Shown here piece by piece: positions 1,534-3,480 of a stretch of DNA of 5,018 bases (position 1 is the stretch's first letter; each line of letters begins with the position of its first letter). A program made the translations under genes and the position numbers. The DNA lies in contig JALXCH010000385.1 of assembly GCA_026991005.1 (NCBI GenBank), positions 1 to 5,018 on the forward strand, given 5' to 3'. The notes beneath the pieces are model-generated. The model was not told the DNA's origin and searched no databases. It worked only from the letters and a program-made list of their open reading frames with translations. This DNA comes from Calditrichia bacterium (GTDB taxonomy: Bacteria; Calditrichota; Calditrichia; RBG-13-44-9).

Positions 1534-1540
1534 GGGAGGA
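1534..1540 (+). promoter_or_regulatory. Ribosome binding site deciding the ATG at 1546
   Basis: GGGAGGA lies 5 bases before ATG 1546. The ATG is followed directly by a signal peptide, whereas an upstream in-frame TTG at 1462 has no ribosome binding site and would place 28 unlikely residues before the signal peptide. This site therefore fixes the start at 1546. Confidence 0.75.
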
Positions 1541-1545
1541 TTCTC

Positions 1546-2061
1546 ATGTTAAGATTAACTCCACTGTATTTCCTGATACTTGGTGTGTCTCTTGCCCTGG
1601 GAATTACCCTGCAGGAGGCGTACCAGAATGCCGCACCGGGCCTGGGCTACGACAAGTTAATTCTTCTGAACCCCGATTCCGTGTACACCGGCGGTCTCAC
1701 TGTTGTGGATGAAAAAGTGGGCATTAAAGGGTTCGGTGCACTGATTGATTTGAATAATGACACGATTTCGGTTACAGGACAATCGGTGATTGATCTGGAT
1801 GGGTGCGTCATCATTAACGGACTTGCCGGGTTGTATCTGGATGGGCCGGTAGTGTCCCGGGTTTCTCAATGTACCTTTTACGGAAACCAGTATGGTATCC
1901 TCATCCAATCCGGCGATGCCAGCATTACGGTGTACAATACCATCCTGGCTCACCATTCCCGCTACGGATTTGCCTGCAAGAAGAGTACCCAGCGCACGTT
2001 ATTTTACCTGGATGCCTTTCAGAACACTCTGGGAAATTATGTGGAATGGTGCCCGGGTTGA
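1546..2061 (+). CDS. Secreted parallel beta-helix protein, N-terminal part before an in-frame TGA
   Basis: Start ATG 1546 is chosen by its strong Shine-Dalgarno sequence. Residues 1-19 form a signal peptide: basic start M-L-R-L, hydrophobic core L-Y-F-L-I-L-G-V-S-L-A-L, likely cleavage after A-L-G. From about residue 20 the sequence has the spaced short hydrophobic strands, Asn/Asp/Gly turns and N-x-x-G-I-L-I pattern of a right-handed parallel beta-helix (pectate lyase/NosD-like fold); no catalytic site is evident. Translation as usually called ends at TGA 2059-2061 (codon 172), in the middle of the last coils. The same frame continues without another stop to 3480 and supplies the beta-helix C-terminal cap and all later domains, so this is not a complete protein by itself. 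Either the gene is freshly broken, the TGA is an error, or it is read through, possibly as selenocysteine. Confidence 0.8.
   Translation: MLRLTPLYFLILGVSLALGITLQEAYQNAAPGLGYDKLILLNPDSVYTGGLTVVDEKVGIKGFGALIDLNNDTISVTGQSVIDLDGCVIINGLAGLYLDGPVVSRVSQCTFYGNQYGILIQSGDASITVYNTILAHHSRYGFACKKSTQRTLFYLDAFQNTLGNYVEWCPG
2059..2061 (+). other. In-frame TGA, candidate recoded codon or nonsense mutation
   Basis: The codons read TGG-TGC-CCG-GGT-TGA-GGC-GGT-GGT, that is W168-C169-P170-G171-stop172-G-G-G. Cys two residues before the TGA makes a CxxU-type pair if selenocysteine is inserted. Alternatively a single G-to-T change of GGA would restore a glycine run. The coding frame is undisturbed on both sides, with no sign of an indel. 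Confidence 0.55.
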
Positions 2062-3480
2062 GGCGGTGGTTCTTACCAGGCCTTTGCGCCGCAACCTGGT
2101 ACAGGTTGTTTAACCAGCGATCCGCAATTTTTAGACCCCACCAGTTACCTCTTTCAACTTCAATCCGGTTCCCCATGCATCGGCAGCGGCAAAGATGGTT
2201 ATGATATAGGTGGCATTTTTTACAATAATATCCCCGAAGCTCCGGACAGTTTAACCATCCAGGCGGATACCGCCCAGGGAACCGTCACCCTGAAATGGAA
2301 AAATCCCACTCAAACAGTGTACGGCAATCCTCTCACTTCCCTTTCTGCCATTCGCATCTTTCGTAACGATTCCCTGATTGCCGAGTTGAACCTGGCGGAC
2401 GTGAGTTACGATTCCTCCTACACCGATGTAATTGACCGGGGAGATTTTTACGTTTATGCGGTGTGTGCGGTGGATAGCAGTAACGTTCCCGGACGGATTA
2501 TGTACGGATGTGAGACATGGTACGGAGATCCCATTCACGGGGTTGTCATCTGGGATCTGGATGTTACCCCCGTTACCGGGCAGGCGCTGGTGGAAGGAAT
2601 TCGCGCTGCGGGCTACGATGCTCCCATATATTTAACCCACACTTCCGCTCGCTACCCCCTAACCCCGGATGTTCAGGCGGTATTTGTGTGTTTGGGGATG
2701 TATTCCAACAATCATGAACTGAGCGATGAAGAAGGGCTAAAACTCAAAAATTATCTGGATCAGGGTGGTCGGGTGTATATGGAAGGTGGCGACACCTGGT
2801 GTTACGATCCCCAAAACGTGGTTCATCCTTACTTTCACATTCTGCCCATAGGGGATGGAAGCTCTGATCTGGCCACTGTGGTGGGAGACACCGGAACGTT
2901 TTGTGAAGGGCTCTATTTCAACTATCAGGGGGAAAATTCCTGGGTGGATCGCATTGGGCCTTCGGGAAACAGCCAGCGTATTCTGTACAACCTAAATACT
3001 CTTTATGGGGTGGCGGTGGCTTACGACGGCGGAACTTACAAAACCATCGGTGCCAGTTGTGAGCTGGGTGGTCTGGTGGGAAACACACCTAACAGTACCC
3101 GTAACGAACTCATCCGGCGCATTCTGGTGTTCTTCGATGTGATTCCTCCTATCGGTATTGCCGGGGATCACGCTCCCTCTTTACCGCAGGATTTTCTCTT
3201 GCAACCCAATTATCCCAATCCCTTTAACAGCCGTACGGTGTTCTCCTTCGCGCTGCCCTGGAATGGCGATGTGCAGTTGCAGATTTTTAACGTGGCCGGG
3301 CAGAAGATTTACCAGGCGGTACGGAAAGGACTTCCGGCAGGATGGCATCGGATGAGCTGGGATGGAATCGATTCTCATTCCCAGCCCGTGGCAAGCGGGC
3401 TGTATCTCTACCGAATCACAGCACGCTCTACCCGTGGAAAGCAATTGGTGCGTACGGGAAAAATGCAGTTGGTGAAATAG
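2062..3480 (+). CDS. Continuation of the same protein: beta-helix cap, FnIII, GATase-like domain, T9SS tail
   Basis: This stretch is in the same frame as 1546-2061 and open up to TAG 3478-3480. The first start-type codon, GTG 2317, has no ribosome binding site and lies inside a domain, so independent initiation is unlikely. Numbering from ATG 1546: residues 173-222 finish the beta-helix with its typical end (D-P-Q-F-L-D-P, then G-S-P-C-I-G-S-G and D-I-G-G). About 230-325 is a fibronectin type III domain (I-P-E-A-P, V-T-L-K-W, F-Y-V-Y-A-V). About 330-532 is a Rossmann-like domain resembling the class I glutamine amidotransferase fold (V-V-I-W-D, then V-F-V-C-L-G and L-D-Q-G-G-R-V-Y-M-E-G-G-D-T-W), with no proven catalytic triad. 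About 546-644 is a T9SS sorting/FlgD-Ig-like domain (P-N-Y-P-N-P-F-N-S-R-T, S-G-L-Y-L-Y-R-I). The product would be a surface-exposed or released protein, perhaps carbohydrate-binding; its function is unknown. Confidence 0.8.
   Translation, partial: GGGSYQAFAPQPGTGCLTSDPQFLDPTSYLFQLQSGSPCIGSGKDGYDIGGIFYNNIPEAPDSLTIQADTAQGTVTLKWKNPTQTVYGNPLTSLSAIRIFRNDSLIAELNLADVSYDSSYTDVIDRGDFYVYAVCAVDSSNVPGRIMYGCETWYGDPIHGVVIWDLDVTPVTGQALVEGIRAAGYDAPIYLTHTSARYPLTPDVQAVFVCLGMYSNNHELSDEEGLKLKNYLDQGGRVYMEGGDTWCYDPQNVVHPYFHILPIGDGSSDLATVVGDTGTFCEGLYFNYQGENSWVDRIGPSGNSQRILYNLNTLYGVAVAYDGGTYKTIGASCELGGLVGNTPNSTRNELIRRILVFFDVIPPIGIAGDHAPSLPQDFLLQPNYPNPFNSRTVFSFALPWNGDVQLQIFNVAGQKIYQAVRKGLPAGWHRMSWDGIDSHSQPVASGLYLYRITARSTRGKQLVRTGKMQLVK
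2074..2101 (+). promoter_or_regulatory. SECIS-like hairpin just downstream of the in-frame TGA
   Basis: TACCAGG (2074-2080) pairs perfectly with CCTGGTA (2095-2101). Inside it TTGC (2084-2087) pairs with GCAA (2091-2094), leaving a 5' bulge CCT (2081-2083) and a triloop GCC (2088-2090). There are 26 bases between the TGA and the apical loop. A bulged U under a short upper stem and a G at the start of the apical loop are hallmarks of bacterial SECIS elements such as that of E. coli fdhF, and the spacing is in the accepted range. The structure is seen directly; its function is inference, and a chance hairpin is possible. Confidence 0.35.

Follow-up and report, generated by a model that had tools for sequence, protein, structure and literature searches.

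The TGA codon at positions 2059-2061 of the window (the whole stretch of DNA that was analysed, 5,018 nucleotides) is most probably decoded as selenocysteine (Sec) within an exported beta-helix protein. For this explanation as a whole, i.e. Sec at the UGA, a SECIS element at 2091-2109 and a single T9SS-exported protein, we estimate a probability of about 0.93. It is based on the conservation of the UGA and of the reading frame and on the Sec genes in the genomes of relatives, while use of the hairpin, T9SS export and the chemistry of the site are predictions from sequence. A ribosome reaching the UGA would use SelB and Sec-tRNA-Sec, guided by the hairpin just 3' of the codon, and translation would continue to the TAG at 3478. 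The product would be one exported protein that begins with a signal peptide and a right-handed beta-helix, continues with additional Rossmann-like and beta-rich domains and ends in a T9SS sorting domain. Within a flexible loop, Sec would follow the Cys of the W-C-x-x-U motif by three residues, the working part probably being an exposed selenol/thiol site. An earlier sequence-only reading of this DNA had proposed selenocysteine in a T9SS-exported beta-helix protein, and this is now the best-supported interpretation in view of the conserved UGA and the Sec genes of its carriers.

The in-frame TGA and its homologues

On its plus strand the window mainly carries the 3' end of an alpha/beta hydrolase gene (2-1243), the candidate gene (Table 1) and, from 3904 on, the first part of a gene for EF-G. 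The hydrolase has a T9SS sorting domain of its own (PF12697, PF18962). The candidate gene is open from its ATG to the TAG at 3478-3480, the TGA being the sole interruption. The part of the protein preceding the TGA matches PF13229 (31.5 bits, cut-off 25.9) and PF05048 (25.1 bits, cut-off 23.6), and the C-terminus matches TIGR04183 (32.2 bits, cut-off 23) and PF13860 (29.5 bits, cut-off 27), in agreement with the earlier beta-helix and T9SS assignment; PF13585 (26.1 bits) falls slightly below its cut-off of 27. As judged by the sorting domain, the protein is a putative T9SS cargo.

Table 1. Positions of the features discussed in the text
Feature	Position	Strand	Remark
Ribosome-binding-like site GGGAGG	1534-1539	+	5' of candidate gene
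Selenoprotein candidate gene	1546-3480	+	644 codons with TGA read through; homologues collinear on both sides of TGA
Hydrophobic N-terminus, putative Sec signal peptide	1546-1602	+	Translation read by eye
Right-handed beta-helix domain	1603-2250	+	Ends approximate; Pfam matches before TGA; beta strands in model
Cys169 codon, C of W-C-x-x-U	2050-2052	+	[WF]Cxx terminates 36/37 N-terminal homologues
UGA, proposed Sec172	2059-2061	+	TGA conserved in L001, L002, L003 and L091
Hairpin of the sequence-only reading	2074-2101	+	Real in window, unconserved, mutually exclusive with 2091-2109
Proposed SECIS hairpin	2091-2109	+	8 pairs, loop GUA 2099-2101, 37 nt from UGA to loop
Cys188 codon, third conserved Cys (GxGC)	2107-2109	+	In 5/5 DNA homologues including window
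C-terminal T9SS-type sorting domain	3187-3477	+	TIGR04183, PF13860

The TGA had been noted in the context W-C-P-G-[TGA], which we confirm (in full V-E-W-C-P-G-[TGA]-G-G-G), and it is also present in divergent homologues. In a scan of genome contigs, 80 loci were retained out of 299 relatives, and only L001, L002 and L003 matched the N-terminal domain strongly; all three have TGA at the corresponding column. So does L091, and in all four the frame is conserved across it. The same TGA is thereby found in four other genomes, the proteins being 46-50% identical over their full length. L001 is titled Calditrichaceae and L003 Ignavibacteriaceae. L002 is titled Deltaproteobacteria, yet its genome belongs to the phylum of L001 and the gene content of its locus is nearly identical to that of L001. 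No gene neighbourhood common to L001, L002, L003 and L185 was seen except for the resemblance of L001 to L002; nine chosen neighbours were analysed with Pfam. The EF-G of the window was closest, among 45 genomes, to those of G038 (77%), G037 (74%, partial), G040 and G041 (both 72%) and G039 (71%), all within L001's phylum, and 45% identical to that of G003. This places the window very probably in Calditrichota.

Fifteen of the 40 genomes in G001's phylum matched (E 0.001); G001, G002 and G041 did so strongly (E < 1e-76) with one TGA each, and the remaining listed matches were weak and without stops. Twenty-two of 391 Ignavibacteria genomes matched: G003 strongly, with one TGA, G222 (the genome of L126) at an intermediate level, with 34% identity and no stop, and the others weakly. 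No relatives were detected in the scan of viral contigs. Directly 3' of the UGA, the block GGGSxxAFxPQPGxGC is conserved in frame, and over the 70 codons following the UGA dS was 1.2-2.4 (defined in 4 of 6 pairs) compared with a dN of 0.40-0.56. The conservation of the TGA is far beyond chance. TGA also closes ordinary open reading frames near the gene (in L001, for instance, 4 of 10), so there is no general change of the code, and recoding of the entire genome was rejected on this ground.

Database proteins break at the same column. With the read-through protein as query, 104 proteins were obtained, the window's own (P0002) among them. Its top 24 relatives (P0003-P0026, 372-522 residues) begin, without exception, downstream of the TGA column; P0027 and P0028 have other N-terminal domains. 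With the upstream half as query, 36 of 37 proteins terminated exactly at the column as [WF]Cxx-stop (WCPG in 19, WCSG in 11, WCPS and FCPG in 2 each, WCES and WCST in 1 each), the lone exception, P0142, appearing frameshifted just before it. The YVEWCxx-type motif occurs in 36 of 141 fetched proteins, none of which has a residue after it. The protein alignment omits P0128, P0130, P0133 and P0142 of the N-terminal proteins and every C-terminal protein after P0026. Nine pairs of N- and C-terminal proteins have equally long longest contigs, and in one pair the genes (Kow0042_29410 and Kow0042_29400) are adjacent in one Calditrichia bacterium. Cys188 is present in all seven C-terminal database proteins that start early enough.

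Gly, Arg or Trp at the column, which would have spoken for an ordinary codon, is absent from the close homologues: the column holds UGA in DNA and a stop in proteins. The expected Cys was likewise not found there. A search with residues 1-240 and whole-protein lengths gave one match, P0004, which begins after the column; as that search needs shared five-residue words and missed the 752-residue homologue L126, a rare Cys form may exist. The lack of a Cys form counts against the Sec reading, Cys homologues at the Sec column being usual for selenoproteins, though not obligatory.

A more distant branch has a stop at what appears to be the same place. In the phylum of G505 (locus L004, titled Cloacimonadota), 11 of 124 genomes matched the N-terminal domain with E 1e-8 or better. 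Seven of eight fetched loci (L187-L193) have TGA at the corresponding place, within LCEYG-[TGA] followed by xxPxxVSW; the eighth, L186, has neither stop nor Cys there. In six of the seven, no further stop interrupts the frame before the fetched sequence ends (425-433 codons). L192, open for 139 codons, has a frame-broken upstream half that looks frameshifted, and the codon count for Cloacimonadota excludes it for that reason. The spacing is C-x3-U in this branch as opposed to C-x2-U in the window. From the alignments, we read the Cloacimonadota UGA as probably the same site.

Sec genes of the carrier genomes and other readings of the UGA

The sequence-only reading would have been refuted by a genome lacking selB or selC, which is not what the relatives show. 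The four carrier genomes (G001, G002, G003 and G041) all have a tRNA-Sec scoring 63-72 bits, which ARAGORN calls as tRNA-SeC with anticodon tca. The Rfam tRNA-Sec model alone is unspecific: five of 14 control genomes pass its cut-off too, as does G222 (47.4 versus 47 bits), where ARAGORN finds a tRNA-Ser. Of the five genomes searched, the four carriers have both selA and selD above cut-offs, whereas in G222 nothing matched selA and any selD match stayed below the threshold. Three carriers (G001, G003 and G041) have a complete selB; in G002 it is a fragment of 50 positions. The selD matches L180 (G041) and L182 (G001), both over the cut-off, each contain one in-frame TGA, and Sec-containing SelD is known.

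One contig of the Ignavibacteria-class genome G003 (C48, 17603-23134) carries selD, selB, selA and tRNA-Sec in less than 6 kb, a cluster with the look of an acquired cassette. Within its order, 2 of 164 genomes (G003 and G408) have selA and one has the candidate gene (G003; the seven best candidates per genome were scored), so that the sole gene carrier is one of the two selA genomes. selB is widespread in G001's phylum (29 of 40 genomes), and co-occurrence of the gene with selB therefore says little there.

If the UGA were a true stop, the locus would encode a 171-residue beta-helix protein and, further 3', an independently initiated T9SS protein. Gene callers divide the homologues in this way, and possible in-frame GTG or TTG codons, the nearest start candidates, follow the UGA after 23 codons in L001, 51 in L091 and 26 in L003. 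In the window, however, there is no in-frame ATG, GTG or TTG across the 85 codons following the UGA, and the protein is conserved in frame right after the UGA, ahead of any such start. The first half alone would moreover forfeit the signal-anchored C-terminal sorting domain, and a UGA fixed after W-C-x-x in 36 of 37 homologues is unexpected for a plain gene end. We therefore consider termination very unlikely. It is also highly improbable that the UGA is read as another residue, be it Trp, Gly or Cys by near-cognate readthrough or Cys by a variant tRNA-Sec. Such decoding would suit RNA evidence for a SECIS that is moderate and a Sec proposed here from sequence, but it is at odds with selA and selD in all four carriers, with TGA terminating ordinary frames nearby and with C-x-x-U being a usual Sec context (Table 1, PMC13188914).

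The possibility of a simple GGA-to-TGA mutation, raised in the sequence-only reading because the lone TGA stands amid glycine codons, extends to a pseudogene and to a sequencing error. We give these a negligible chance: the TGA is shared with four other genomes and a long open frame lies on either side of it. Point mutation and pseudogene were both rejected on the conservation of the TGA.

Candidate SECIS hairpins

The two-tier hairpin originally proposed as the SECIS is present in the window as described, with TACCAGG 2074-2080 pairing with CCTGGTA 2095-2101, TTGC 2084-2087 with GCAA 2091-2094, and the loop GCC at 2088-2090. Folded alone it takes this shape at -11.1 kcal/mol (z -2.5), and 7 of 200 shuffles were as good. 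As a conserved SECIS it did not hold up, since its pairs decay in relatives. The 7-bp and 4-bp stems, complete in the window (7/7 and 4/4), retain 6/7 and 3/4 pairs in L001 and L002, and the hairpin is lost in L091 (4/7 and 3/4) and L003 (3/7 and 2/4). When 52 nt of the window are folded, the hairpin at 2091-2109 displaces it.

The latter keeps its 8 pairs and a loop GUA or GUU in all five sequences (four of them distinct). The spacing from UGA to loop is 37 nt, but 34 in L003, and folded alone the hairpin reaches -9.3 (window), -11.7 (L001), -11.7 (L002), -9.3 (L091) and -9.0 kcal/mol (L003). The available text of PMC13188914 gives as limits of bacterial SECIS elements a loop of 3-9 nt with G in the first two positions, a stem of 4-16 bp, a distance of 16-37 nt from the UGA and an energy of at most -7.5 kcal/mol, and the hairpin is within them in 5/5 sequences. 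It thus resembles these elements in its 3-nt loop beginning with G and then U, its stem, its distance and its energy, and is unlike them in that the spacing is at the upper limit.

Codon choice may reflect selection on the RNA. Among 174 degenerate conserved codons, 13 are identical in the window, L001, L091 and L003 (L002, nearly identical to L001, was excluded from the codon counts), and these make up 3 of 5 inside the hairpin compared with 10 of the 169 that lie outside it (p 0.003, Fisher's test). When the genes were recoded with their own codon usage, all four 7-bp stems survived in 7 of 20,000 trials; it should be underlined that the hairpin was chosen post hoc, so these p-values are optimistic. 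Covariation is weak, amounting to one pair, a level reached by 237 of 500 shuffles, and the 63-nt fold of L003 favours another structure. A search of Rfam gave one match only, snoZ40, far below its cut-off (27.3 versus 50 bits). Overall, the RNA-level evidence for a SECIS is moderate.

The Cloacimonadota branch has a differently placed hairpin. An 11-base block, invariant in 7/7 sequences, lies inside a 6-bp stem with the loop AGUUG, 18 nt from the UGA; this loop differs in sequence from that of 2091-2109. The stem pairs in 41 of 42 cells, and 2 of its 6 pairs change on both sides, which 25 of 500 shuffles also reached. It is broken at one pair in L187, which a simple 5-bp scan did not flag, and in L189 the hairpin, folded by itself, differs little from shuffled sequences (-7.6 kcal/mol, z -1.2). 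A Cloacimonetes-type tRNA-Sec is mentioned in the available part of PMC5330540.

Sec may be inserted at the UGA with the help of 2074-2101, or of hairpins specific to each species, instead of 2091-2109. The former hairpin is the stabler one in the window when folded alone, with its loop 26 nt from the UGA, in the middle of the published range of 16-37 nt (PMC13188914, available text), and the placement in Cloacimonadota would fit species-specific elements. In view of the loss of 2074-2101 in L091 and L003, against the 8 pairs of 2091-2109 in 5/5 sequences, we regard this arrangement as unlikely.

Relation to known selenoproteins and nature of the site

Known CxxU selenoproteins (e.g. SelW-like, AhpD-like and GrdA; PMC13188914, Table 1) share with the candidate the in-frame UGA preceded at three residues by a Cys, genomes that carry Sec genes and a SECIS-like hairpin within 37 nt. 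They differ in that the candidate has a beta-helix scaffold and a T9SS domain, while neither a known redox domain, thioredoxin-like or other, nor a Cys form was found. A thioredoxin-like fold is shared by most of the selenoproteins that have been characterised (PMC13188914). Envelope or surface selenoproteins by name are the TonB-dependent receptor FCYXU type, the MtrB/PioB-like GSU2204 family and the ExtKL cytochrome (PMC13188914); these are different families, and the table describes none of them as T9SS cargo or as a beta-helix protein. Table 1 of that paper, which by its text covers 119 families and subfamilies, has no entry for a selenoprotein of the beta-helix or T9SS kind. No selenoprotein model was among the NCBIfam matches of four family proteins, and the literature matches listed held nothing relevant on Caldithrix/Calditrich selenoproteins or on selenocysteine with T9SS/Cloacimon. 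Deng et al. are said to have reported in 2026 candidate selenoproteins from groundwater genomes, which could include the present family.

Sequence comparison thus points to a probable new family of secreted, surface-exported selenoproteins. We think it likely that Calditrichota, Ignavibacteria and Cloacimonadota share an undescribed group of T9SS-exported beta-helix selenoproteins with no known Cys counterpart, C-x2-U or C-x3-U motifs and branch-specific SECIS placement. If so, phyla whose selenium biology has received little study would have selenocysteine in a protein exported by T9SS, and selenium chemistry would take place outside the cell on a scaffold that is not known to be redox-active. 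As described in the available texts, the Sargasso Sea, GOS and deep-Sep discovery studies search for Cys-containing homologues, so that families lacking a Cys form can escape them; the genes of the present one are annotated as two truncated proteins.

Sec-less T9SS beta-helix proteins (PF13229/NosD-like) are represented by L126 and L186, which match residues 21-231 at 32% identity and residues 1-215 at 34%, respectively. Their beta-helix is homologous to that of the candidate, but unlike the candidate they have no stop, C-x-x-U or GxGC Cys in the corresponding loop, the neighbouring Cys residues being absent along with Sec.

An AlphaFold model with Cys replacing Sec had a mean pLDDT of 88.7, with values of 56 and 60 for the blocks flanking the Sec residue. 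A fold search with the whole model gave only low TM-scores among the best 50 matches listed, and a PDB sequence search matched nothing beyond the C-terminal sorting region. Cys188 lies 16 residues beyond Sec172. The model suggests a flexible loop at the Sec position; with Cys169 and Cys188 close by, Sec may form an exposed selenol/thiol site. Substrate reduction, a selenenylsulfide or soft-metal binding may be its chemistry; as a matter of judgement, we somewhat favour a redox role, with metal or metalloid binding the less probable option. Small and defined (C-x-x-U and one Cys), the site is open to assay.
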